A stretch of 64,000 nt of DNA. It comes from Candidatus Saccharimonadota bacterium (lineage in GTDB: Bacteria > Patescibacteriota > Saccharimonadia > Saccharimonadales > Saccharimonadaceae). The notes under the pieces were generated by a model. That model was not told the origin of the DNA, ran no database searches, and saw only the letters and a list, made by a program, of their open reading frames with translations. Both the position numbers and the translations under genes were made by a program. Of the stretch, positions 32,910 through 59,401 are shown in pieces. How positions within the stretch are numbered: the stretch's first letter is position 1; each line of letters starts with the position of its first letter. Location of the stretch: NCBI GenBank assembly GCA_017431105.1, contig JAFRLS010000034.1, positions 124,001 to 188,000 on the forward strand. The letters are read 5' to 3'.

Positions 32910-33869
32910 ATGAATAGAGTGGTTTCGGTGGTGGTGCCAGTGTTTAATGAAGAAGCGGGGATTGTCGATTTTTTGGATGAACAACTTTTACCGGTGGTGC
33001 GTGGGCTAAAGTATGAAATTGAAGTAGTTTTGGTAAATGACGGGTCTAGTGACAAAACACTTGAAAAAATTAATGGGTGTAAACTAAAAAATAAAATAGA
33101 TTTCAAATTGATTTCGTTAGCACGGAATTTTGGTAAGGAAATTGCTTTGACTGCCGGGGTAAACCATGCAAGTGGCGATGCGGTAGTTATGATTGATGCA
33201 GACGGCCAGCATCCAGTGGAGATGATCCCGAGGATGATTGAAAAGTGGGAAGATGGTGCACAAATTGTGACTGCAGTAAGAGATGAAAACACTACGAAAC
33301 ATAAACTTGGTTCGAAGTTTTATTATGCGATGATGAGGACGTTTGGGAATAAAGACGTAGTAGTGGGGGCAATGGATTTTAGATTGATTGATCGTGGCGT
33401 GGCAGATGAGTTTAACAAATTTACTGAGCGGAATAGATTAACTAGGGGTTTGGTTGACTGGATTGGCATACCGCAAACATATATTAAAGTGAAGACAAAG
33501 GACCGAACAAGCGGCAAACCAACTTACAGCACGAAAAAATTAGCAGCGCTAACGATGGATAGTCTAGCTTCTTCATCGCGGACACCACTGATTATTTTCG
33601 GATATATAGGTATGTTTATTACTATCATCTCGCTAATTTTGGGGTCATTTATTTTGATTCAGCAATATATTTTGGGTGACCCGTTGAAACTGGATTGGAG
33701 TGGGGCAGTGGCAATGAGCGTATTTGTATCATTTTTGGTAGGGTTAGTGTTAATATCGCAGGCGATTACAGCGCTATATATCTCACAGATTCATACTGAA
33801 GCGAAGGGTAGACCACTATATATTATTAATAAAAGGCAGTCGATGGGCATTGATAAGAAGAAAAAATGA
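32910..33869 (+). CDS. GtrB-type GT2 polyprenyl-phosphate glycosyltransferase
   Basis: The 319-aa protein starts VVSVVVPVFNEEAGIVDFLDEQL. It has LVNDGSSDKTLEKI, SLARNFGKEIALTAGVNHASGDAVVMIDADGQHPVE with the DXD-like DADGQ motif, and RLIDRGVADEF. Two transmembrane helices at about 230-290 complete the DPM/GtrB architecture. It should transfer a hexose from a nucleotide donor to undecaprenyl phosphate. TATAAT at 32895-32900 is 9 nt from the ATG. The next gene overlaps by 4 bp. Confidence 0.93.
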   Translation: MNRVVSVVVPVFNEEAGIVDFLDEQLLPVVRGLKYEIEVVLVNDGSSDKTLEKINGCKLKNKIDFKLISLARNFGKEIALTAGVNHASGDAVVMIDADGQHPVEMIPRMIEKWEDGAQIVTAVRDENTTKHKLGSKFYYAMMRTFGNKDVVVGAMDFRLIDRGVADEFNKFTERNRLTRGLVDWIGIPQTYIKVKTKDRTSGKPTYSTKKLAALTMDSLASSSRTPLIIFGYIGMFITIISLILGSFILIQQYILGDPLKLDWSGAVAMSVFVSFLVGLVLISQAITALYISQIHTEAKGRPLYIINKRQSMGIDKKKK

Positions 33870-34660
33870 AAAAAGTATTATTAAGTTTTGATATAGAGGA
33901 GTTTGATTTACCCAAAGAACATGGCGCGGAAATTTCGCTTGATGAAGGAGTGAAGGTATCGGCAGAAGGCTTGGAAAAAATTTTGGAATTGTGCAAAAAA
34001 CGTGAAGTAAAGGCAACGTTTTTCTGCACTGGTAATTTTGCCCTGAAAAGACCAGATTTGATAAGACAGATTGTAAAAGATGGACACGAAGTGGCGTGCC
34101 ATGGGGTGGATCATTTTAATCCGAAATCTACGGATGTAGTTGAATCGAAAAAAATAGTAGAAAAGGTGGCTGGGGCGAAGGCCGTAGGATATCGGCAACC
34201 GCGAATGTCCCCAATTGATTATAAAGAATTATCAAAATGTGGATATAAATATGATTCTAGTGTAAATCCGGCTTTTATTCCGGGGAGATATAATCATTTG
34301 AATACGCCAAGGACGCCATTTATGCGAGAGGATGTTTTAGAAATACCAACATCGGTGGCGACATTTGTGAGAGTGCCATTATTCTGGTTAGCCCTACATT
34401 TGTTTCCGGTAAGAATGTATGTGCGAATGGCGAAAATGTCCATAAAAAAGACAGGATATTTTACGACTTATTTTCATCCATGGGAGTTTGTTAAGCTTAA
34501 TGGTTTTATGAACGTGCCGAAATATATTAAGCGAAATAGTGGAGATAAATTAGTACGACGTTTAGAACAGGTGATAATTAGCCTGAAACAATCTGGGTAT
34601 GATTTTGCAACTTATGACGAGTTTGTTGAAAAGTATTATAGTGCGGAGGACAAAAAATGA
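33866..34660 (+). CDS. Polysaccharide deacetylase (NodB homology domain)
   Basis: This carbohydrate esterase family 4-type protein of 264 aa starts LLSFDIEEFDLP, where D9 and neighbouring acids fit the first catalytic/metal motif. It has ATFFCTGNFALKRPDLI, then the HEVACHGVDHFNP metal-binding His motif near 73-85 and YRQPRMSPIDY as the Arg motif. A C-terminal TYFHPWEF carries a further His. No signal peptide is evident, so it may act on lipid-linked intermediates inside the cell. It overlaps both neighbours by 4 bp in a gtrB-deacetylase-gtrII unit. Confidence 0.9.
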   Translation: MKKVLLSFDIEEFDLPKEHGAEISLDEGVKVSAEGLEKILELCKKREVKATFFCTGNFALKRPDLIRQIVKDGHEVACHGVDHFNPKSTDVVESKKIVEKVAGAKAVGYRQPRMSPIDYKELSKCGYKYDSSVNPAFIPGRYNHLNTPRTPFMREDVLEIPTSVATFVRVPLFWLALHLFPVRMYVRMAKMSIKKTGYFTTYFHPWEFVKLNGFMNVPKYIKRNSGDKLVRRLEQVIISLKQSGYDFATYDEFVEKYYSAEDKK

Positions 34661-36168
34661 AGAAGGTAAAAGAAGAAATAAGTAGATTTTGGAAGAGTAA
34701 TAGGTTTTTGCTGAAACCGTTTTTGACACTTTTAGTAATATATTTGATGGGGGTTTCGGCAATAATACTAGCTGGGGTACATTATGCAGATGATGTGGCG
34801 CGCACAACTTATGGTTATGCGGGTTGGAATGGTTTTAGCCGGTATGTTGATACGGTACTTGCGCATATATTGCACGCGGATGGGTATTTAACAAACATTG
34901 CGCCGTTGCCACAACTTTTGGCGGTGGCGATTTTGGCTTTGGCTAGCGTAATGATGATTTGTGTAGTTTCTGGTAAAGAAGTATTTAAGTTGAAATGGAC
35001 AAAATGGATTTGGCAAGTGGTAGCGGTGGTGCCACTAGCGTTGTCACCGTATATGCTAGAATGTTTGTCTTACCAATATGATGCGCCGTATATGGCAATA
35101 TCGGTATTTTGCGCAGTAGTTCCTCTAACTTTCAGAAAACAAAAAAGATGGATGTATATATTAGCGATTGTGATAGGAATTTTGATGATCTGCATGACTT
35201 ATCAAGCGGCGGTAGGGATTTTCCTGATGTTAGTAGTAATGATAACGATAAAAGAATGGAGTACTAAGAAAAACAATAAAGAGGTTTTGAAGTTCGTATT
35301 AATTTCGGCTGGAGTGTTTTTGTTAACGCTTCTGGTATTCCAAAAGATTTTAATGAAACCACGAGACGCGTATGCGTCGAATAGTTTGCCGGCGATTGAC
35401 GAATTAGCGCCAACCTTCTTTAGTCATTTGGGACAGTATTTTTCGTTAGTGTTTAGTGATTTTAAGATTTTATGGTTGGTGATGATGGGCTTAATTGGCG
35501 TTTTCTTTGTGTTTTTGTTTGTCGTGAATAGCAAGAGAAACAAGGTGGCGAGCTTAGTGATAGCAATGGTGGGTGGTTGTGCGATTATAGTTTTGGCGTT
35601 TGCATTTTATGCAGTGCTAGATAAACCACTTTATGCAACGAGAGCGATGTATCCGTTGGGGGCATCACTTGCGATTATGGGAATATATGTAGCGTCTGGA
35701 GAGAAGAAAATGGGGGTTGTCTTAAAGGTTCCTATGGCTGTGTTAGTTTGGTGTTTTTTTGTGTTTGCGTTTACGTATGGTAACGCATTGAAAGAACAAA
35801 ATAATTATAGAAATATGGTGGCCGATATGGTAATTAGTGATTTAAATGAAATTATGGTAGACGATGCGCCCAGAACCATACAAACAACTGGTAGTATTGG
35901 ATTTTCGCCAGTAATTTTACATATGCCGCAAAATTATAAGATTTTAGATCGACTTTTAATGCCGACTTATAGTAGGTATGTACCATGGATGGCTTATAAG
36001 GTAACGTTACAGAACGGAATTTCTAATTTGGTCTATGACGAGAGTGTAGATTTGGTCAGTATGGGGTTGCCGATGTTAAAAGAAACTGCACTATATAATA
36101 TATATGGTGATAGCAAGAATATTTTGGTGGAATTTAAAGATAAACATGATTTTAATGTAGTGTTTTAG
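34657..36168 (+). CDS. GtrII-like membrane glucosyltransferase
   Basis: The 503-aa protein has about ten to twelve transmembrane helices. After the first helix the outward loop has HYADDVARTTYGYAGW followed by FSRYVDTVLAHILHADGYLTNIAPLPQ, which resembles the GtrII serotype-conversion glucosyltransferase family, where the paired Asp is thought to be catalytic. GtrII-type enzymes attach glucose from undecaprenyl-phosphate glucose to a growing polymer outside the membrane. Together with GtrB at 32910 and a GtrA-containing fusion at 30190 this forms a complete Gtr-like module. Confidence 0.85.
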   Translation: MKKVKEEISRFWKSNRFLLKPFLTLLVIYLMGVSAIILAGVHYADDVARTTYGYAGWNGFSRYVDTVLAHILHADGYLTNIAPLPQLLAVAILALASVMMICVVSGKEVFKLKWTKWIWQVVAVVPLALSPYMLECLSYQYDAPYMAISVFCAVVPLTFRKQKRWMYILAIVIGILMICMTYQAAVGIFLMLVVMITIKEWSTKKNNKEVLKFVLISAGVFLLTLLVFQKILMKPRDAYASNSLPAIDELAPTFFSHLGQYFSLVFSDFKILWLVMMGLIGVFFVFLFVVNSKRNKVASLVIAMVGGCAIIVLAFAFYAVLDKPLYATRAMYPLGASLAIMGIYVASGEKKMGVVLKVPMAVLVWCFFVFAFTYGNALKEQNNYRNMVADMVISDLNEIMVDDAPRTIQTTGSIGFSPVILHMPQNYKILDRLLMPTYSRYVPWMAYKVTLQNGISNLVYDESVDLVSMGLPMLKETALYNIYGDSKNILVEFKDKHDFNVVF

Positions 36169-36229: not shown

Positions 36230-39200
36230 ATGCAAAAAATGAAGGCTAATAAGAAGTTTCGTTTATGGGGACGCAAGAGATTTTTTGTGGCTATTGTATC
36301 TGTCGTTTTATGTACGGGCACTTTTTTAGCGGTAGCTATTTATAATAAGAGCAAGGATAGTTTTGCTGATATTGATGCTTCTGTGGAGGACGATATAGCG
36401 GTTGCAAGAAGAATTGCTAAAAAAGCGAAGATTGTCGAAGAAGATGTTGACATGTATAGTACTATGTATTATGCGGGAGCTGCATATAAGGTTGTTTTAC
36501 CAACAAATCCTTTATACGGCAAAGGTAAGTTCTCTTACAAATGGTATCTTAATGGTAGTAATCTGGAGTGCAATGATGGCGTTCTCAAGCCTGCTGAAGA
36601 GTATTGTCGCGCCAAAAATTATGGCTATGGTGAAATTTCGGCTGATATTTATTATGAGTATGACGACAACGGCACTACTAAAAAAGTATTACTTACTGAA
36701 ACTTCTAATGATAGACCAAAATATACTTCAGAGGCTGCCGAGATCTCATATGATTTTGTGGGCAAAGATAATAGCGGAAATACGAAATTCATATTTTTAA
36801 ACAACCCAGAAGCTATTAGCGTAGAGGACATAACAGATGGGTATACTGGTAAATATATTTATAAGACGAGCTTAAAAAAGAATACTGAATTTTATTTTGA
36901 GCATAATCGTGACGGAAATCCGAGTAGTTTGAAGTTCTTTTATGGCATAAAGTTGTGGAATGGTTCGGGAAGCCAGATTACGGTAAGATTTAACAGGTCT
37001 GGCGTTTCGGCTACTGTTGATGGTGGGGCAGCCCCATACGCAAAAGTATGGGAAGAGTATTATAGATATGACGGTATGGTTGAGCGCAGGGAATATACTA
37101 ATGGTGTTTGGCAGTGGTTTGGTTTGCAAGATAAATCAACAACCATAGAGGCTGGAGAGACTAAATATATATGGTTGGTACGTGATGATTCAAAACGAGG
37201 AAATGCTAAATTTATTTTGACAGGTAATGATTCTGGCTCTTTGAATTATCTTGACGCTAATTATGCACCAACATCAGATTCTTGGGCTTTTGATGGTGTT
37301 TTGAATATGACTATTACAGGGGGTGATGCCACAAAAGTGCATTTGGTAGCATTTGCAGCTAAAGATGGTTCGCTTAGTAATTTTGCTGAAGGGAATAATA
37401 ACCAGCTAGGGAGTTTATCAGCTGCTAGCTATAAGGGTACACAGCATACGGGTGAATATGATGGTTTACCAGAAGTAAAAGCAAATATAGAATATGATAT
37501 TAGTAATAATACATCAGCTGGGACATTGAAGACTTATTATAGCACGACTAGTGATGAAACAGATTTAAAATTAATAAATGGCTGGGTCACTAATATAACT
37601 GGCGAGAGAGCTGGGGATAGTCTATATAATAGAATAGCTGCGTATCAGCGTGAACTTATACCTTTGAAGCTTCCAGCAGGACTTCCGAGTTCTTTGGGCT
37701 ACGGGTATGATACTTTACGCCCGTTCGAAAAGAAAATTGTGACAGCAAATTATATAACAAGATATTATGATGTTGTCACAATTAATAATACCAGCGACAA
37801 GCCTAGGACTGTGGCCTATTTTATAAATACAGCTAGCGGTACACTAAGCACTCCTGCGTCTACAACCTTGGCGGCTTTTGTCCAACGGGATGACACTTCT
37901 AGTGGCGTAACTTTTGCTAATGGTTACGATGGAGACGTTTTTCGCCCGATAGAAAATTATACAGTAGCGAATGGGACCACTGTGACGAGGATAAATAATG
38001 CAAGAGTATCTGTGACGCGGCCGACATTTGAATCATTCTCGTTTAGAACAAATATAAAAGTTTGGTCCGCGGAAATACAGCCTGGTGGTTCGGTGACGAT
38101 TCCGGCGGTTTCCTTGATGGGTGGGATGAGTTTTGCTCCGCTGGTTAGGAGGATTTGTATTGATAATGTATGCGAAGAACCTACATATAGTTGGAACGTT
38201 GAAAGTGGTGGAACGGGAGGGGTCACGAGTAAGTTGGGGTGGGATGTGAGCACATCACAAGTTGAGCCGTTAACAAGAGATTATTCTACTTGTACAGTAA
38301 AACTGAAATATTCTGATGATAACTCTTTCAATAGTCATACAATTAGAAGCAATACGGACTTCGTTTTAACCCCTCTTAGAAGTACGTTTAAATTCGCCGG
38401 GTGGTCGCTTAATGGCGACATGGTAAATTTGTTGCCAGCCAATTATGTTTTTAATTGTAGGGCTGGCGAAACTATTACTATCGAGGAGATATTGGGCGAT
38501 ATAGATTCGGGCGTAGAATCCGTGAGCTTTGATGGTCGTGAATATGTTGTCGGAATAAATCCAGGCACTAAAATTGAAAATTTAGATTTGGGATTTAAAA
38601 ATTCGTTCCAGAAATTTGTCCATTTGAGCGATAGGAATGGAGAGAGAGGTGCCCCATATATTGCTGTGACTGGCGATATTGTTGAGGGGATGAATATTGA
38701 GTACAATGGAGGTCTCCCTGCTAAAGTCCTTGAACCTATGGCGCAGTATAATTTAGTAGTAACTGGGGATACTACTGGTGATGGAGTGTTCTCGGTATCA
38801 GATGTCGCAAAGGCTTACAGACATATAACCAATACAGATACAATGACTGGTGGTGATGTTTTGGCAGGAGATGCTAATAATGACCAAAGAGTTAGTAGCA
38901 ATGACGTAAGGAGTCTATATACATCATTAAGAGGCTTAAGCAGCGATGCTCCTGCTCCTACACGTTTGGAGACTAAAATCGGTTTAGGGTCGGTCTCTAT
39001 AAGCTGTGACAATTCCGAACTTAAACCTGGTGAATCTACTAATTGTAGAATAAATGGGCATAGCGACTATGCTATTACGAGCTTGAAACTTGATGTCTCT
39101 AAAATGGGAGCTGTTAGCTTAATATCTAATTATAGTGTGAATAGTGATATTTGGCAGGGCACGGCTGAAGACGGGCACTTTATTCTATACACGAACCAGA

Positions 39201-39715
39201 ATTTAACTGGAGATTTTTCGATAGGGTCTTTTACGGTGACGGTGACGTCGTCTGCTAATAATGGGATAGTCAGGACTAAGAATATAAGTTTTGATGGGGC
39301 ATCGGATTATAAAAATTATGCAGTTCGGGATGCTAGCGAGACTATTGATTTAGATGATAGCGGTGACCAACCTGGCGGCGACCAACCTGGCGGCGACCAA
39401 CCTGGAGGAGATCAGCCTGGAGGCAATGAACCTGGTGGCAATGAGCCTGGTAACGAACCTGGCGGCGACCAACCTGGAGGTGATCAACCTGGCGGCAATG
39501 GGCCTAACAATAATAACAATGAAGATATTGATGTGCCAAATACGGCGTCTGGAGACTCTGAAACTAGTGCGCCTTATACTGGTGCCAATACGAAAACTGG
39601 TGGAGAGGGCGCTTTGTTTGCGGAAATTCTACTTCCTATAGCAATTGCTGGGTTTATTGTGACAGGCTATGTCATGAATCGAAATAGAAAACACATAGAT
39701 TTTGGCAAAAAATAG
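36230..39715 (+). CDS. Large surface protein with dockerin, cohesin-like and Gly-Pro stalk regions
   Basis: This 1161-aa protein has a basic N-terminus, a signal or transmembrane helix at about 18-40, and a long beta-rich ectodomain. A RSTFKFAGWSLNG segment near 720 resembles Listeria-Bacteroides repeats. Residues ~844-905 form a dockerin-like pair of Ca-binding loops, DTTGDGVFSVSD and DANNDQRVSSND. Residues ~910-1040 resemble a cohesin beta-sandwich. A (GGDQP)-type stalk follows at ~1045-1092, then a C-terminal transmembrane helix (about 1128-1150) and a basic tail NRNRKH. No canonical LPXTG is present, so it is probably membrane-anchored. It may be an adhesin or scaffold; domain calls are by motif. 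Confidence 0.85.
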   Translation: MQKMKANKKFRLWGRKRFFVAIVSVVLCTGTFLAVAIYNKSKDSFADIDASVEDDIAVARRIAKKAKIVEEDVDMYSTMYYAGAAYKVVLPTNPLYGKGKFSYKWYLNGSNLECNDGVLKPAEEYCRAKNYGYGEISADIYYEYDDNGTTKKVLLTETSNDRPKYTSEAAEISYDFVGKDNSGNTKFIFLNNPEAISVEDITDGYTGKYIYKTSLKKNTEFYFEHNRDGNPSSLKFFYGIKLWNGSGSQITVRFNRSGVSATVDGGAAPYAKVWEEYYRYDGMVERREYTNGVWQWFGLQDKSTTIEAGETKYIWLVRDDSKRGNAKFILTGNDSGSLNYLDANYAPTSDSWAFDGVLNMTITGGDATKVHLVAFAAKDGSLSNFAEGNNNQLGSLSAASYKGTQHTGEYDGLPEVKANIEYDISNNTSAGTLKTYYSTTSDETDLKLINGWVTNITGERAGDSLYNRIAAYQRELIPLKLPAGLPSSLGYGYDTLRPFEKKIVTANYITRYYDVVTINNTSDKPRTVAYFINTASGTLSTPASTTLAAFVQRDDTSSGVTFANGYDGDVFRPIENYTVANGTTVTRINNARVSVTRPTFESFSFRTNIKVWSAEIQPGGSVTIPAVSLMGGMSFAPLVRRICIDNVCEEPTYSWNVESGGTGGVTSKLGWDVSTSQVEPLTRDYSTCTVKLKYSDDNSFNSHTIRSNTDFVLTPLRSTFKFAGWSLNGDMVNLLPANYVFNCRAGETITIEEILGDIDSGVESVSFDGREYVVGINPGTKIENLDLGFKNSFQKFVHLSDRNGERGAPYIAVTGDIVEGMNIEYNGGLPAKVLEPMAQYNLVVTGDTTGDGVFSVSDVAKAYRHITNTDTMTGGDVLAGDANNDQRVSSNDVRSLYTSLRGLSSDAPAPTRLETKIGLGSVSISCDNSELKPGESTNCRINGHSDYAITSLKLDVSKMGAVSLISNYSVNSDIWQGTAEDGHFILYTNQNLTGDFSIGSFTVTVTSSANNGIVRTKNISFDGASDYKNYAVRDASETIDLDDSGDQPGGDQPGGDQPGGDQPGGNEPGGNEPGNEPGGDQPGGDQPGGNGPNNNNNEDIDVPNTASGDSETSAPYTGANTKTGGEGALFAEILLPIAIAGFIVTGYVMNRNRKHIDFGKK
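39365..39508 (+). repeat. In-frame 15-bp tandem repeats encoding Gly-Pro stalk
   Basis: About ten degenerate units of the form gaccaacctggcggc, encoding DQPGG, NEPGG or variants, run in tandem inside the surface protein gene. The first two units are identical at the DNA level, so copy number could change by slippage or recombination without breaking the frame; one unit is shortened to NEPG. Confidence 0.85.
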
Positions 39716-42695: not shown

Positions 42696-43580
42696 ATGGA
42701 ATCAGGTCAGAACGGTGGGAATGGTGCTTTCGGTGGTTCTTTTTCTGTGCCGCAAAATATTATTAGTGGCAACGATATTATTGTGGGCCAACCAGAAAAT
42801 AAAAAAAGCCATAAGGGTTTGGTAGCTGGTGGGATATTGACGATTTTCTGCGTTGCGATAATAACTTTGCTAGTTTTTATTAATTTTCAAAATAGTGGGA
42901 CGAGTGGCTCTGAAAATCTAGACAAAATGAATGAAGAAATTTCTAATTTTTCGAGCGCTATTATGTATGGCGATGGAAGACGGGTTGATTTGTCTACGAT
43001 GACTTATAGTGACTCGATAAATTATAAGTTTAGATATGAGATAAGGGGTGGTGATCAGGAATATATAAATTCAGTGATAGATAAGTTTAATTCTATAGAT
43101 GATCTAATTCTTGACGATAACAACCTAAACTTAACAGACGAAGATAAATATTATTTGGGAGTTTATGGAGATAAATTACAATTTCTGAAGACATATGTAG
43201 ATAGTTTAAGCGAAGACCCCATGGTTATAATCGATAAACTTGTTGAGGGAGGAAAAGACGAAGCCATTTCTTATATTGAAACTCGCTATAGTGAATATCT
43301 AAATTCTAGCAACTCTAGTTTGCGTGATTATTTCACATATAAAGCTGAATATGAAAAGTTAGCTATTGATGTTTTATCGCGGGCCGATGTCGATGGATGC
43401 ATCAGCGATGATTACACGGTTCTTAACTGTGAAATAAACTCCTTAATAACTGAGGAAGAAACATCGCATTTGCAAGAAATTCAGCGTGAGATGAGTGTGA
43501 TAGTTGACACTAATATTAAATATGTAATCAACGGCTGTTGGAGTATTTATAATATAGTTAATGGGGTAGAGGATGCTTAA
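42696..43580 (+). CDS. Single-pass membrane protein of unknown function
   Basis: The 294-aa protein starts with a Gly/Asn/Ser-rich cytoplasmic stretch (about 1-45) and has one transmembrane helix (about 46-68, GLVAGGILTIFCVAIITLLVF). The extracellular region of ~220 residues is acidic and probably helical, with several YxxS and DxxS motifs and two cysteines in DGCISDDYTVLNCEI. No family was recognised. TAAAAT at 42684-42689 is 6 nt from the ATG. It overlaps the next, VirB6-like gene by 8 bp, so the two probably function together. Confidence 0.85.
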   Translation: MESGQNGGNGAFGGSFSVPQNIISGNDIIVGQPENKKSHKGLVAGGILTIFCVAIITLLVFINFQNSGTSGSENLDKMNEEISNFSSAIMYGDGRRVDLSTMTYSDSINYKFRYEIRGGDQEYINSVIDKFNSIDDLILDDNNLNLTDEDKYYLGVYGDKLQFLKTYVDSLSEDPMVIIDKLVEGGKDEAISYIETRYSEYLNSSNSSLRDYFTYKAEYEKLAIDVLSRADVDGCISDDYTVLNCEINSLITEEETSHLQEIQREMSVIVDTNIKYVINGCWSIYNIVNGVEDA

Positions 43581-46500
43581 GAAAATATTATTTGCATTAG
43601 TGTTGCTGTTTATTAGTATTACATCTGGATTACTCTACTCTAGTGGGGCGTCAGCGCTAGAGCTTAATAGCGACTCTGAAATATATAAGAAGATAATTCG
43701 ACAAAGCATTAAGGCTTGTTATAGAGAGGAACCACTATCTAGCAAGGTCTTTGTAGAAGAATGGCCAAATAATGAGTTTTATGGGTTGTTTGGCGATGCT
43801 TTATGGGTGAGTATGCCGACGGGTTATACACTATTAGAAGATAATTTTGTTACATGCAAAGGGTTAATTTATGGTGACAAAATAGGTAGTGGGGCTAAAG
43901 GTGAATACGCCGGGATTTTGGATCTTTATGGGAAAGATATTTCTGATAAAACAGGTTTAGAAAAAAAGAAAGAATTAGCTGTTGGGTTAGGATATGAAGA
44001 AGCTCCAGAAGTGCCATATAATAAAAATGCTCCTTTATATTATGCTTTAAAATATACATATATGAGTTATCATAAGACAACTACTTTCGTATTTTTGAAG
44101 GATGAGTCAACCGGAGGGCCGTATGATGCTGCCACTTATGTGACTGGCACAAAAGTCAATGAGGATGGGACGGTGGCAGGCAGCTTGGAAATTTTTGCAT
44201 CTGGTAATGGAGCTACTATTGAAGATGCTGGAATTATTTTTAAGGAAAATACTGATAAAACCGGGGGGACACTCTCTATTGCATGTACAGATTTTGTGAA
44301 AAAATGGAAAGAAGGTCTTCTTAATGATATTTTGCTTGGTATGGCCACTACCGCTACTTATACAGATTTTGATTGTGTGGATGGTGATTTGCCTATATCT
44401 TATAATCAAACGATATGGAATGATGGTGATATCGATAATGGCGCCAATGCATCAGGAAACTCAATAATAGGATTTTTAAATAAACATTTGCCATTAGATT
44501 TTTCTACACATATGTCACAATGTAGAGGGGGAAATATGTGCCCTGTAGTTTATGAAGAGACAAACGTTTTTACTGCCGCAGGGACTATTTCTAATGATCC
44601 ATATTACGTAGATAAACCTACTAATATTGCCTTGCCTGGCGAGTATAGAAAAATAGGGAGTTGGGACGATCGAGCCGTAAAGGGCATGGAATATTTTACG
44701 GGTGGTACTAATAGAATTTTTACCGATGCTGAAATATATATATTATATGCTGGATATTTGACGGATTATTATAAAGCGGATTTCCAATGTGGGGCTGATA
44801 AAGCAGAGTATTATGCTGGTAGAGAGGGATATATTAGAGCAAGTAATCTATTGTATGATGGCGAAATGCGGGATGAATGCTATGTTAAAGCGGTTGAAAA
44901 TGCAGACAAAAAAGTTAATGGCGTTAGTTTTTATAGCTTTAATGGGGCCGACCGTGGTGGGGGGATGGTTTTTTATGGGCAAAAGACTTTTGAGGAACTA
45001 TTAGATCAGGTAGCCGATTTAAATGTTGACCCTGAATCTATAGCAGAAGCAAATATTGCTGCTACTAAAACCGATGATGCTCAGTCTGAGCCAGATTTGT
45101 GTTATGGTAATTCTGGGTCTTTAGGGTGGATAGTGTGTCCAGTAATTATACGGTTAAGCGATACGCTGAACACGGTGTATAAAGATATGGTGGAGCCATT
45201 TCTAGTGATTGACGCCGATTTGTTGAAGGAGAATGTTTCCTATGGCGAAAGCGCAACGCATAGGGTGTGGGAAGTCTTTCGTAATATATCTAATATTATC
45301 TTTGTAATTCTGTTTATGATTGTGGTGTTTTCGCAACTTACTGGGGTAGGGATTGACAACTATGGTGTTAAAAAAATCTTACCGAAATTGATTGTGGCTG
45401 CCATTTTAATCAATTTATCTTATTATATTTGTCAGATAGCGGTAGATGTTTCAAATATTCTAGGTAAGGGGTTAAATGATGTATTTACTGAGATAGCAAA
45501 AGGAATCCCGTCTAGCTTTAGTGGAGATTTTAACTCTGGAAACTGGTTTGCAGGAGTATTGAATGGTGCATTGGCAGTGTTAGGCATAGGGACTACCGTG
45601 GGGCTGGTGGCAACGGTGATGGATGGAGGCATATCGGCTATCATCTTGCCTTTATTAATGGGATTAATAACAGCATTTGTTGCAGTGATATTCTTCTTTA
45701 TCTTGTTAGGTATGAGAAAAGCAGGCGTAATAATATTTGTTGCATTATCTCCTCTGGCGTTTGCTTGTTATATGTTGCCAAATACTAAGAAATTGTTCGA
45801 TAAGTGGCTAAAAGGATTTGAGGGACTATTGTTGGTATATCCAATTTCTGGGGCATTAATCGGTGGTAGCGTCTTGGTATCTAGGGTCTTAATACAGACA
45901 GACGACTTTCTCGTTTATTTGATAGGCCTATTATTATTGGTAGTACCATTCTTCTTTGTACCAGTATTACTCAAGGGTTCATTTGCGGCAATGGGGAATA
46001 TTGGGGCAAAGATTTCTGGATTTGGGAAGTTGTTAGGTTCCAGAAGTGGTGGTAGGTTAAACAGATTGATTAGAAATAGTGAAAGATTTAAGAACCATCA
46101 GGCGGAGATTGCAAGGCGCAACCAAGAGAGGAACGCGAATAGCACGATTCGTAGGTTAAATAGTAAGATGGGCCGACGGGGCGGTAGATTGAATGAAAGA
46201 GATACGCGTAGATTAGCTCGGAGCCAGGAGTCATTAGATAGATTACAAAGGGAGGATAAAGCGGCGCGTACCATATTGTCTGAAAGGGAGTTTAGAGATA
46301 GTACTATGCCCGAGTTAGAAGAGGCCTGGAATGATGCATTCGATAATGGTGATTCTGAAAGACTAGACGCACTTACTAACGTGTTAAATACAAAATATGG
46401 TTCAGCTGGGGCAAAGTTTATTGGTGATGCCTTAGCTGGTAAGACGATAGTGGATAAGAATGGGCAAGTAAATCAAAATGCGGTAGCCTCTTTGAGGATG

Positions 46501-47049
46501 TTACAAGACAACATGAACCATAATTCTAGTTTTGCTACTAGTATGAGAAGTAAAGCTTCTGATGCTTATGGTATGATTTCAAATGCCGGCATGTATCATA
46601 ATAGTGCTACTGGAAAAAATGAATATAAGAACTTGAGCCATTTTTCAGCTAATAATAATATTTCTACTGATCTCAAGGATTGGTCTACACAGTCCGCATC
46701 TACTTTGCAACGTGCTGTTAATAGTGGTGCGTTGGATGATGATATGGTCGAAAAACTGCTCACGAGTACTGATCCCGCCATTCAGTCTGGTATACAGAGC
46801 GATACAAAAAAGATGGATGTATTACGAATGGCAAAAAGGCAAGCAGAGGCAAAGCAAGCTGCTGAATCAGCGAGACAACAAGAATCCTTGCGAGTTCAAA
46901 CAGATATATCAAAGAGCTTGCAAAATATAGATGGTACACTAAATAGTCGTGGCGGAAATAGTTTCACTGGTGCTAATGATGAAATTTCAATTCCACATAT
47001 TGACCAAAACATAGGTGGTCCGGACGGCGCGGATGATGTTCCAGAGTAG
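43573..47049 (+). CDS. VirB6/TrbL-like T4SS membrane protein with large ectodomain
   Basis: The 1158-aa protein has a signal peptide (about 1-29, ending ASA-LELN). A Cys-containing extracellular region of roughly 500 residues follows, then a cluster of transmembrane helices (about 565-800). The helices start WEVFRNISNIIFVILFMIVVF and SQLTGVGIDNYGVKKILPK, closely matching the protein at 56258. A basic, helical cytoplasmic tail (about 810-1158) is rich in R, N, Q and S. The membrane core suggests the VirB6 channel component. Compared with its paralogue it has a much larger ectodomain and stands apart from the virB4 locus, next to uvrA. The specific role is unknown. Confidence 0.85.
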   Translation: MLKKILFALVLLFISITSGLLYSSGASALELNSDSEIYKKIIRQSIKACYREEPLSSKVFVEEWPNNEFYGLFGDALWVSMPTGYTLLEDNFVTCKGLIYGDKIGSGAKGEYAGILDLYGKDISDKTGLEKKKELAVGLGYEEAPEVPYNKNAPLYYALKYTYMSYHKTTTFVFLKDESTGGPYDAATYVTGTKVNEDGTVAGSLEIFASGNGATIEDAGIIFKENTDKTGGTLSIACTDFVKKWKEGLLNDILLGMATTATYTDFDCVDGDLPISYNQTIWNDGDIDNGANASGNSIIGFLNKHLPLDFSTHMSQCRGGNMCPVVYEETNVFTAAGTISNDPYYVDKPTNIALPGEYRKIGSWDDRAVKGMEYFTGGTNRIFTDAEIYILYAGYLTDYYKADFQCGADKAEYYAGREGYIRASNLLYDGEMRDECYVKAVENADKKVNGVSFYSFNGADRGGGMVFYGQKTFEELLDQVADLNVDPESIAEANIAATKTDDAQSEPDLCYGNSGSLGWIVCPVIIRLSDTLNTVYKDMVEPFLVIDADLLKENVSYGESATHRVWEVFRNISNIIFVILFMIVVFSQLTGVGIDNYGVKKILPKLIVAAILINLSYYICQIAVDVSNILGKGLNDVFTEIAKGIPSSFSGDFNSGNWFAGVLNGALAVLGIGTTVGLVATVMDGGISAIILPLLMGLITAFVAVIFFFILLGMRKAGVIIFVALSPLAFACYMLPNTKKLFDKWLKGFEGLLLVYPISGALIGGSVLVSRVLIQTDDFLVYLIGLLLLVVPFFFVPVLLKGSFAAMGNIGAKISGFGKLLGSRSGGRLNRLIRNSERFKNHQAEIARRNQERNANSTIRRLNSKMGRRGGRLNERDTRRLARSQESLDRLQREDKAARTILSEREFRDSTMPELEEAWNDAFDNGDSERLDALTNVLNTKYGSAGAKFIGDALAGKTIVDKNGQVNQNAVASLRMLQDNMNHNSSFATSMRSKASDAYGMISNAGMYHNSATGKNEYKNLSHFSANNNISTDLKDWSTQSASTLQRAVNSGALDDDMVEKLLTSTDPAIQSGIQSDTKKMDVLRMAKRQAEAKQAAESARQQESLRVQTDISKSLQNIDGTLNSRGGNSFTGANDEISIPHIDQNIGGPDGADDVPE

Positions 47050-56257: not shown

Positions 56258-59200
56258 ATGATAGCAAAAAGATTTTCAAAAAATCGTTTAATAAAGACCA
56301 TTTTTGGTTGTCTTTTTGCTATTGTAAGCTTGTTTTCATTGGCTGCACCTGCGGGTATAGTATATGCTGATGAAGAGCCTGTGGAAGAACCAGTACATAT
56401 TGAGCTTGGCACGGATGCAGATAGAACTACACATGAAACGGAAGGGGTTGTTGAGAAAAAACCAGAGACAGGAGCTTCTTGTGAAGACAGTTTAGGTGAA
56501 TTGGGGTGGTGGGTATGTCCACAAACTGGCAAGATTGCTAAGGCAGTGGATTGGCTATACGATAAGATAGAGGATATTTTAGTAATTAATCCGGTAGAGG
56601 CTAAGGATGGTTCGCCGATTTATGAAATCTGGAAATATGCAAGAGGAATTACTAACATAATATTTATTATATTCTTGTTAGTGGTGATCTATTCACAATT
56701 AACGGGCGTAGGTATTTCTAATTATGGGATTAAGAAGGTGCTGCCTAAGTTAATCGTGACGGCGATTTTGGTGAATTTAAGCTTTATTATTTGTTCTTTG
56801 GCGGTGGATGTTTCGAATATTGTTGGTGATAGTATTAGAGGGGTGTTTACGGCGATTGAAGAAACGACTTTGACGAATTTTCAGGTGACTGACGATATGC
56901 GTGTAACGTTGGCAGAGATGTATTCGGCGTTGGCGGGTGGAGAAGCACTAGCAATTGGCGCAGCTTTTATTGGGTTTGAAACTGGGGCAATTTGGATGTT
57001 AATACCAGTGGTGCTTGGGGCAATAGTAGCAGTAGCTTCTGGTTTAATCACGATTGCGCTCCGTCAGGCAGTGGTGATACTTTTGATTATGATTGCACCA
57101 CTTGCAATTGTGGCTTATATGTTACCGAATACCGAACAATGGTTTAAAAAATGGAAACAACTCTTTACGAAGATGTTGGTATTTTATCCAATGTTTTCGC
57201 TTTTGTTTGGGGCATCTAGTTTGGCGGGGTGGGCGATTATAGCAAGTGCTAGCGATGGTTTTGGATTGTTGCTTGGTGTGGCAGTACAAATTTTCCCACT
57301 GTTTTTCTCATGGAATTTGATGAAGATGTCTGGCACATTCTTAGGCACGGTCAACGCGAAAATTCGGAATTTGGCGGCGAAACCGCTTGCTTCGAATCGA
57401 GCATGGGCAGAATCGCGTCGCATGAATAGAAGAGCAAACACTTTGGCAAATGGGATTACTCCGTCTGCTGGGTTGATGCGATATATGGAAAAAAGGCGCG
57501 CGTTAAGAGAAGAGGATACGAAGAATGCTGCGATGATTACTTCTGGCAGGACAACGATGTATGTACAACGAAAGATTGCAGACAGTAAGATTGGAGATAT
57601 GGAAAGCTCTTCTAAAAGGACGTCGCGCTATACGCGTAATGCTAAATTGGCACGGAATTATTCATTAAAGGAGAAGAACGCAGTTTCGCACACTGAACAC
57701 GTGTTAAATAATTATAACAAGTATTTCGATCATGGGAGTCTTGATGAAAGGATTGGCAAACAAGCTCAAGATGCCTGGATTGATTACGGGCGTGCAGCGT
57801 ATCTGAAAGATATTGACGAAGAAAACGATATTAATTTCTTGGTTGATAGATACCTAAAGATTAACGAACGTGACGAAAATAATAATCCTAAATTTGAAGA
57901 CGAGTTTAATAAATATATCAGATCTGTTACTGGGCCAAATGGTGAACAACGTTTGATGGCTAAGATTATTGCACAGGCAGCAAAGGTTGAATCTAAACAA
58001 CGAGCTGAATTCAATATCATGTATGCAAAGTGGGGGCACAATGGTTATAATAAAAGGGCTTTTCGTGATTGGATTGTTGGATATAAGACTAATGATGATG
58101 GTTGGGCAGTAGATGAAAATGGCAAACGTCTACTTGTTTTAGGCAAGGATGGTAAGCCAATAAAAGACGAAAATGGTAATAATGTGCCGTTAGAGGTTGT
58201 ACAAGGTGATGCTCTCACGAAGGCTCCAGAACGTTTAGTGCTTTATGATAAAAGAGATGAAAATGGGTTGTATTATGACTTTAAGGATCAAAATGGCAAT
58301 ATTATAGCAAGAGTTCATCGTGGTATTGGCGATGATGGCAAAAATCATGATGATGCAGCGTTTATAAAAGAGACTCTTTCGAATTACGATATCCCAATTG
58401 CAGACCCTATCAACAATATTTATTCTATTCTTGCTGGTGTGAAAGCATGGGATGGCAAAGAAGGTGAGCGTGGAGATATTAATGTTTTGAATGGCCATAG
58501 TGATATTGGTCTTGCTAGGTATAGCACTACGATTGGACGTGCTATGAAGGAGTATAAAGGGAATGCAGCATGGGCTGGCTCGATGTTTAATTCTGGTATT
58601 GGCAATCGCCAAATCAAGAACTCTTCACAGCATGCAATCTGGGTATTGGATAGTATTGTAAAAACATTGAAGCCAGGAGCGTTTAATACGCAAAACCCAG
58701 CTTCGGTTGAATATGTGAGATCGATTTTGGATCCAAATAATTGGAAAGAAATTTTTACGGAAAAAGAATTGATAAATGCCGTGAATATTAATAACAAGCT
58801 TTATGGTGGTGAAAATTGGAAATATGATGAAGAAGGGAACGTTGTGCGTCGTCCGGATGGTGAGATTGACTATGAAACAGTGCCGAATCCAACTTATGAA
58901 CAACGTTTGAACACTTTGAAGCGTAAACTTTTGATTCCGGCGATGCAAAAAATATTGCCAGCATTTGATAGGCTCAGGACAAGCAATACTGCGGATAATC
59001 AGAAACCTGGTACTGCAGATGAGCAATACAAGTTCTTGAAGATGGTTCAAGACAGATGGGAACATAACCCAACGATTCCGTTTGATCCAACACTAGTTGA
59101 TCAGGATCTTCAATCTGAGGCGCGAGCTTTCCGTAAAAGAAAGCATGATAAAGATGGCAATTTAATATATGATTCTGCATCTGATGATAGGGCTCCTGAT

Positions 59201-59401
59201 AATCTTCTAGAGTCATTAAGAACAGCCTACGATAGAGCTATGACGCCAGAAGACTTGAGAAGCGAAATATTCGCTATATTAAGAAGTAATGATAGATATA
59301 GTAGAGCATTGATGCGGTTTGACGAACTATGCAATGAAAATCCTGATGCAACGATGCAGGAAATTAGTAACTGGTTTAACGACTTAGACGTTTTAGTATA
59401 A
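56258..59401 (+). CDS. VirB6/TrbL-like T4SS membrane protein
   Basis: The 1047-aa protein has a signal peptide (about 1-32, ending VYA-DEEP) and a short exposed region to about residue 125 with CEDSLGELGWWVCP. About six to seven transmembrane helices follow (about 128-360), including SQLTGVGISNYGIKKVLPK and IMIAPLAIVAYMLPNTEQWFKKW. A ~680-residue basic, helical cytoplasmic tail follows, with a calcium-loop-like series such as DEDG/DENG repeats around 610-680. VirB6 proteins line the inner-membrane channel of T4SS. It is the first gene in the unit leading to PrgI and VirB4. Confidence 0.88.
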   Translation: MIAKRFSKNRLIKTIFGCLFAIVSLFSLAAPAGIVYADEEPVEEPVHIELGTDADRTTHETEGVVEKKPETGASCEDSLGELGWWVCPQTGKIAKAVDWLYDKIEDILVINPVEAKDGSPIYEIWKYARGITNIIFIIFLLVVIYSQLTGVGISNYGIKKVLPKLIVTAILVNLSFIICSLAVDVSNIVGDSIRGVFTAIEETTLTNFQVTDDMRVTLAEMYSALAGGEALAIGAAFIGFETGAIWMLIPVVLGAIVAVASGLITIALRQAVVILLIMIAPLAIVAYMLPNTEQWFKKWKQLFTKMLVFYPMFSLLFGASSLAGWAIIASASDGFGLLLGVAVQIFPLFFSWNLMKMSGTFLGTVNAKIRNLAAKPLASNRAWAESRRMNRRANTLANGITPSAGLMRYMEKRRALREEDTKNAAMITSGRTTMYVQRKIADSKIGDMESSSKRTSRYTRNAKLARNYSLKEKNAVSHTEHVLNNYNKYFDHGSLDERIGKQAQDAWIDYGRAAYLKDIDEENDINFLVDRYLKINERDENNNPKFEDEFNKYIRSVTGPNGEQRLMAKIIAQAAKVESKQRAEFNIMYAKWGHNGYNKRAFRDWIVGYKTNDDGWAVDENGKRLLVLGKDGKPIKDENGNNVPLEVVQGDALTKAPERLVLYDKRDENGLYYDFKDQNGNIIARVHRGIGDDGKNHDDAAFIKETLSNYDIPIADPINNIYSILAGVKAWDGKEGERGDINVLNGHSDIGLARYSTTIGRAMKEYKGNAAWAGSMFNSGIGNRQIKNSSQHAIWVLDSIVKTLKPGAFNTQNPASVEYVRSILDPNNWKEIFTEKELINAVNINNKLYGGENWKYDEEGNVVRRPDGEIDYETVPNPTYEQRLNTLKRKLLIPAMQKILPAFDRLRTSNTADNQKPGTADEQYKFLKMVQDRWEHNPTIPFDPTLVDQDLQSEARAFRKRKHDKDGNLIYDSASDDRAPDNLLESLRTAYDRAMTPEDLRSEIFAILRSNDRYSRALMRFDELCNENPDATMQEISNWFNDLDVLV

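Follow-up and report, generated by a model that had tools for sequence, protein, structure and literature searches.

The window, that is, the whole 64,000-nucleotide stretch of gut-type Saccharibacteria DNA analysed here, lies in a genome of 0.88 Mb. Positions 36230–39715, which sit in a contig of 199.5 kb, hold a single open reading frame that begins with ATG, contains no frameshift or internal stop, and encodes a predicted surface protein of 1161 residues. The gene and all of the features described for its product are on the forward strand. Directly upstream, and separated from the gene by 61 bp, the interval 32910–36168 carries a GT2-like glycosyltransferase gene and a polysaccharide-deacetylase-like gene, both called by eye, together with a gene for a GtrII-type transferase called from a PF14264 match. 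These upstream genes are possibly involved in surface glycan or glycoprotein modification. Weak TrbL/VirB6 matches in two very large proteins (43573–47049 and 56258–59401) suggest a type IV secretion-like system near the surface protein gene.

The N terminus of the protein contains a hydrophobic segment (residues 18–38; 36281–36343; hydropathy up to 2.55), either a signal peptide or a signal anchor, and the following ~ 750 residues (36–785; 36335–38584) are predicted to form the displayed ectodomain. The ectodomain was scanned whole and in pieces and gave no Pfam match above the cut-off, leaving it without an assigned family. Near relatives were found only for the dockerin, the anchor and a stretch covering residues 548–664, and no close orthologue of the protein was found in the named genome collection or in viral contigs. 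Toward the C terminus, a PGGDQ/PGGNE linker recognised from its sequence (residues 1043–1112; 39356–39565) is followed by APYTGAN, a sortase-like PxTG motif (residues 1114–1120; 39569–39589), a transmembrane (TM) helix (residues 1129–1149; 39614–39676; hydropathy 2.09) and a basic tail, such that the protein ends in APYTG, the TM helix and NRNRKHIDFGKK. The APYTG motif is not a canonical LPxTG; a PxTG plus TM tail is common to this and other surface proteins of the genus, and three matches to sortase PF04203 were found in the genome. By its PxTG-like motif, TM helix, basic tail and the presence of sortase in the genome, the protein thus has the sequence features of a sortase-anchored surface protein, one that would be exported, retained by its TM helix and perhaps linked by sortase. 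The initial annotation had described the protein as membrane-anchored, and the hydrophobic segments at residues 18–38 and 1127–1150 support this.

Between the ectodomain and the anchor lie the two modules that are the main subject of this study. An X-module-like beta region (residues 776–845; 38555–38764), modelled as strands by AlphaFold2 (AF2) with a pLDDT of about 55–86 and aligning loosely with the predockerin region of relatives, leads into a dockerin at residues 846–900 (38765–38929), which was delimited by PF00404, by AF2 modelling and by structural superposition. The two calcium loops quoted in the initial annotation were located at residues 847–858 (38768–38803) and 881–892 (38870–38905), and when the protein sequence was shuffled 2000 times, two such loops at the same spacing arose only once. 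The PF00404 match is borderline, scoring 25.5 bits in the genome search and 23.7 bits with the excised region, above the cut-off of 22.9, but 19.9 bits, below it, in the whole-protein scan. A profile built from the other dockerins of the family, with this one left out, retrieved it with an E-value of 2.4e-13. The AlphaFold model of the region (pLDDT 93–97) superposed on the Clostridium thermocellum dockerin 2ccl_B over 62 residues with an rmsd of 0.9 Å (VIA Z 11.6), and on 1ohz_B with Z 11.2. With the fold and both loops present in the model and sequence, the module is assigned as a genuine dockerin, and the earlier dockerin call therefore stands. Loop 1 has T at position 3. A search with PF00404 and a further dockerin search found no second dockerin in the genome.

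A short polar linker of 18 residues (903–920; 38936–38989) separates the dockerin from a beta-rich domain at residues 917–1042 (38978–39355), which has a cysteine pair, Cys926/Cys939. The maximum hydropathy of the linker over 17 residues is 0.31; it is not hydrophobic, and there is no second signal peptide between the dockerin and the following domain. This second domain had been called a cohesin-like beta-sandwich. No match to the cohesin family PF00963 was found in the excised domain, nor anywhere in the genome, which is estimated to be 95% complete, and 22 of 200 shuffles scored as high as the domain itself against a profile of the family's PF00963-type cohesins. Structure prediction across residues ~ 840–1040 had been proposed as a check of both modules; it returned the dockerin fold with high confidence, while the second domain was modelled as beta-rich with a core pLDDT mostly of 43–76 and a pTM of 0.47, in a run where this domain had no alignment support (the partner rows had misaligned to the dockerin). 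Searching with this low-pLDDT model, to look for the nine-stranded jelly-roll fold of cohesins, recovered several cohesins at Z 5.7–6.4, including 6kgd, 2vo8, 2jh2, 1aoh and 2xdh (Z 5.8–6.4), but an alpha-2-macroglobulin domain (Z 6.8) and other noncohesin sandwiches matched equally well. Profile–profile comparison of the domain family with cohesins or with immunoglobulin (Ig)-type partner domains gave weak relationships only, and a PDB sequence search with this type of domain gave nothing convincing. The domain is therefore described here as cohesin-like by position and size, and not as a cohesin recognised by Pfam.

A clearer relationship was found with proteins of relatives. The domain is 32–34% identical to the first domain of a separately encoded anchor protein (L077), and domain plus linker aligned to the same anchor at 34% identity with an E-value of 6.2e-10; phmmer against the L077 anchor gave 4.7e-9. 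A looser likeness was seen to the anchor domains of L011, L016 and L017, with which the cysteines are shared, and a profile made from separately encoded partners alone retrieved the domain with an E-value of 2.7e-7. These matches indicate that the domain is homologous to the first domain of anchors encoded right after dockerin genes. Since these two modules are the products of adjoining genes in relatives, the second domain very probably belongs to the type that partners the dockerin. The earlier claim is supported in that a dockerin and a domain of its likely partner type occur in one surface-anchored protein, and what remains of the cohesin-like beta-sandwich is a beta-rich domain homologous to anchors that follow dockerin genes. 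This type of domain is rare, with matches in 4 of 394 genomes of the family, the present one counted, and two of the four are weak (L181 resembles Big_2, and the L182 match lies in an unrelated region). Matches to the Ig-type partner profile in the present genome fall in two long open reading frames.

A recurrent gene order was found in relatives. PF00404 was detected in 35 of 199 sampled family genomes and PF00963 in 7 of 199. Across this Saccharibacteria family, gut Bacilli and Clostridia, secreted peptidases, muramidase-like enzymes and adhesins were found to carry dockerins at their very C terminus, and in nearly all family hits 1–24 residues separate the end of the dockerin from the stop codon. 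The gene that follows usually starts −12 to +43 nt from the dockerin gene, overlaps of −3 or −12 nt being common, and its product has a signal peptide, a partner domain of ~ 110 residues, in many cases a Cadherin-like domain (PF12733), and a TM helix at the C terminus. In the family set, a same-strand open reading frame started within 60 nt of 35 of 44 nonredundant dockerin-terminated frames, and 26 of these 35 matched the partner profiles; a scan of the named genomes gave partner-profile matches after 27 of 44 dockerin-terminated frames. The profiles were trained partly on the same downstream genes, and these counts are thus descriptive and not an independent test. The dockerin proteins encoded upstream of partner genes include peptidases of families S8 (L011, L014, L057, L109), C1 (L113, L087) and M6 (L145), glucosaminidases (L146, L158, L161), an amidase (L159), leucine-rich repeat proteins and a protein with 18 cadherin-like repeats (L056). 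No description of such dockerin/anchor gene pairs was found in the open literature searched.

The partner domains fall into three kinds, namely the Pfam cohesin (L048–L050, L053 and others), a short cysteine-paired domain and a Big_2/Ig domain; a Big_2 match was obtained for 8 of 44 partner domains. In four Saccharibacteria loci (L111–L114) the arrangement is extended to a three-gene relay, in which a dockerin-terminated protein (a C1 peptidase in L113) is followed by an adaptor comprising an Ig partner domain plus a dockerin, and then by an Ig-type TM anchor. The relay in L111–L116, with its adaptor carrying a second dockerin, resembles adaptor scaffoldins. The AF2 model of the L113 adaptor (pLDDT 94.8) matched the Ig-like domain of the S-layer protein SbsC with Z 11.4 and 33% identity. 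No cohesin was among the matches listed for this model, a result with which a relation to cohesins is still compatible, and the comparisons run gave no convincing sequence or fold link between Ig-type partners and cohesins. Because the Ig domain occupies the same genomic position as the cohesin, these data suggest that it may serve as a dockerin receptor.

Where the parts are encoded separately, the effector would be secreted with a dockerin at its end and received by the outermost domain of the anchored protein encoded by the next gene, and this capture would hold the effector on the cell. The protein studied here has the same order of parts as the two-gene cassettes (L011, L077, L113, L109), with effector, dockerin, partner domain, linker and TM anchor. 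The cassettes, however, are spread over two or three genes, each product having its own signal peptide, whereas here a single chain with a short linker lacks the internal signal peptide. We therefore favour the interpretation that the protein is a covalently fused, one-chain form of the two-gene surface-display cassette, probably latched in cis, and consider this reasonably likely to be correct. Such a fusion had not been noticed in the initial annotation. The fusion would be the derived state, having arisen by loss of the stop codon and of the partner's signal peptide, which would leave the effector joined covalently to the partner domain, linker, PxTG motif and TM helix. Contact between the dockerin and partner domain within one chain may then form a calcium-dependent clasp between ectodomain and stalk, with the ectodomain displayed at the surface and presumably working at contact with other cells.

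A second protein of this design (L089) was found in another species of the genus. It comprises a lysozyme-like start just under the Pfam cut-off, a dockerin, an Ig-type domain (E-value of 4.1e-10), PETG and a TM helix. The two fusions probably arose independently, because their partner domains differ in kind. An artefact of assembly or read-through was rejected, given that the joint is without the partner's signal peptide and that this second fusion exists. Two further candidate fusions (L165, L168) were also rejected, since the tail that follows the dockerin is an enzyme/SH3-like region and a partner gene still follows.

The internal symmetry of the dockerins was compared in a set of 38 found with less bias, from which L040, L043 and L044, small EF-hand-like open reading frames that are probably cytosolic, were set aside. 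Two-fold internal symmetry, which is typical of type I dockerins though not strictly required, is absent from the dockerin of the fused protein in the window. Among the secreted dockerins of this set, the F-helix BLOSUM symmetry score was lowest for L089 (−18, with 0 of 10 identities) and second lowest for the window dockerin (8, with 2 of 10), where the median was 6 of 10 identities. The third-lowest score, 12, belonged to an unpaired dockerin (L022), likewise with only 2 of 10 identities. Both fused dockerins have thus lost the two-fold helix symmetry that most free dockerins keep, a post hoc comparison with n = 2 in which kinship was ignored. Apart from position 3 of loop 1, both fused dockerins retain all calcium ligand positions. 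In type I dockerins, symmetry underlies two binding orientations (PMC12484212); a fused dockerin would need at most one. Because the two-fold symmetry is lost and the anchor is covalent, a cis latch or a spacer is likelier than multivalent assembly.

That assembly had been the idea of the initial annotation, in which molecules would link up, dockerin to the partner domain of a neighbour, into chains or patches on the cell surface. In its favour, the dockerin is modelled with confidence and has largely intact calcium loops, Saccharibacteria adaptors with a partner domain and a dockerin in one chain imply relay assembly, and ANME archaea have proteins with a dockerin plus several cohesins (PMC9012536). 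The relay adaptors, however, have no anchor and show the opposite order of modules, and every copy of the window protein is already anchored, so that binding in trans would add little; together with the loss of F-helix symmetry, this makes trans assembly unlikely. A similarly unlikely explanation is that the dockerin binds nothing after the fusion, the partner domain serving as a stalk. Covalent fusion does make binding unnecessary, and both the loss of helix symmetry in the two fused dockerins and the T at position 3 of loop 1 would fit this reading, but the other calcium ligand positions have all been kept in both proteins and the partner domain retains its likeness to the L077 partner. It is very improbable that the dockerin's partner is a cohesin carried elsewhere, by a different protein of the cell or by another bacterium, with the next domain an unrelated stalk, since, although dockerin-type modules normally have separate partners and this domain is not a Pfam cohesin, the nearly complete genome has no PF00963 cohesin and the domain is homologous to anchors that follow dockerins.

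The fused protein shares with the C. thermocellum type I cellulosome the dockerin fold, the calcium loops and the display of a dockerin on an anchored receptor, but its dockerin is asymmetric and is the only one in the genome. A cellulosome comprises a scaffoldin with cohesins and several dockerin proteins, and neither was found in this genome; the initial annotation had placed the protein outside any cellulose-degrading context, and the genome search agrees with this. Archaea, Archaeoglobus fulgidus among them, also have noncellulosomal dockerin and cohesin-type domains, which occur together in one extracellular protein or are encoded side by side. In ANME archaea, noncellulosomal proteins carry both modules in one chain (PMC9012536), and the combination is not new as a concept. 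The archaeal cohesins, however, are identifiable as cohesins and more than one may be present, whereas the window protein has one partner-type domain, with the dockerin first and a PxTG-TM anchor. Among Saccharibacteria, the cultured Southlakia epibionticum has an essential dockerin-domain protein, SEML1_0315, for which host glycan binding was suggested and whose description in the main text mentions no cohesin (PMC10633639). Both SEML1_0315 and the window protein are dockerin proteins of the Saccharibacteria cell envelope. Within the open literature searched, the recurrent gene pair with differing receptor types and the Saccharibacteria fusions seem to be undescribed.

Saccharibacteria are very small, and the cultured ones are mostly epibionts on other bacteria. 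To our knowledge, what holds their enzymes and adhesins at cell contact is largely unknown. The cassettes and the fusion together point to a little-described use of dockerins unrelated to cellulose, that of retaining proteins on the cell surface. The logic of the gene pair predicts a docking protein for each dockerin, the data suggest that dockerins may work with an Ig receptor that is not a cohesin, and the natural fusions offer a compact model of dockerin–partner recognition in cis. A broader scheme can be put forward only tentatively, in which gut Saccharibacteria and Firmicutes share a dockerin display system, possibly by exchange, many lineages have replaced the cohesin receptor with a Big_2-type Ig domain, and the window protein represents a single-chain version latched onto itself. 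If this scheme were true, the Ig-type partner would be a new dockerin receptor.

Several further arrangements were observed among the relatives. Many Firmicutes dockerin proteins (L126–L142) have no adjoining partner gene, and their partner may be encoded elsewhere. Two giant dockerin-ending frames (L075 and L038, with open frames of 7672 and 2615 residues) have no partner gene within 60 nt. S8 peptidase-dockerin proteins of one type (L014 and L109, and also L108, L110 and L117–L119) are found both in Saccharibacteria and on contigs that carry a gut Bacilli label; L014 and L109 are 33% identical over 1152 residues, each with an anchor gene following, a likeness that suggests either that the cassette was transferred horizontally or that contigs were mis-binned. 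Finally, the order of genes is reversed in L060, where a gene for a PF00963 cohesin immediately precedes the dockerin-terminated gene and overlaps it by a few bases.
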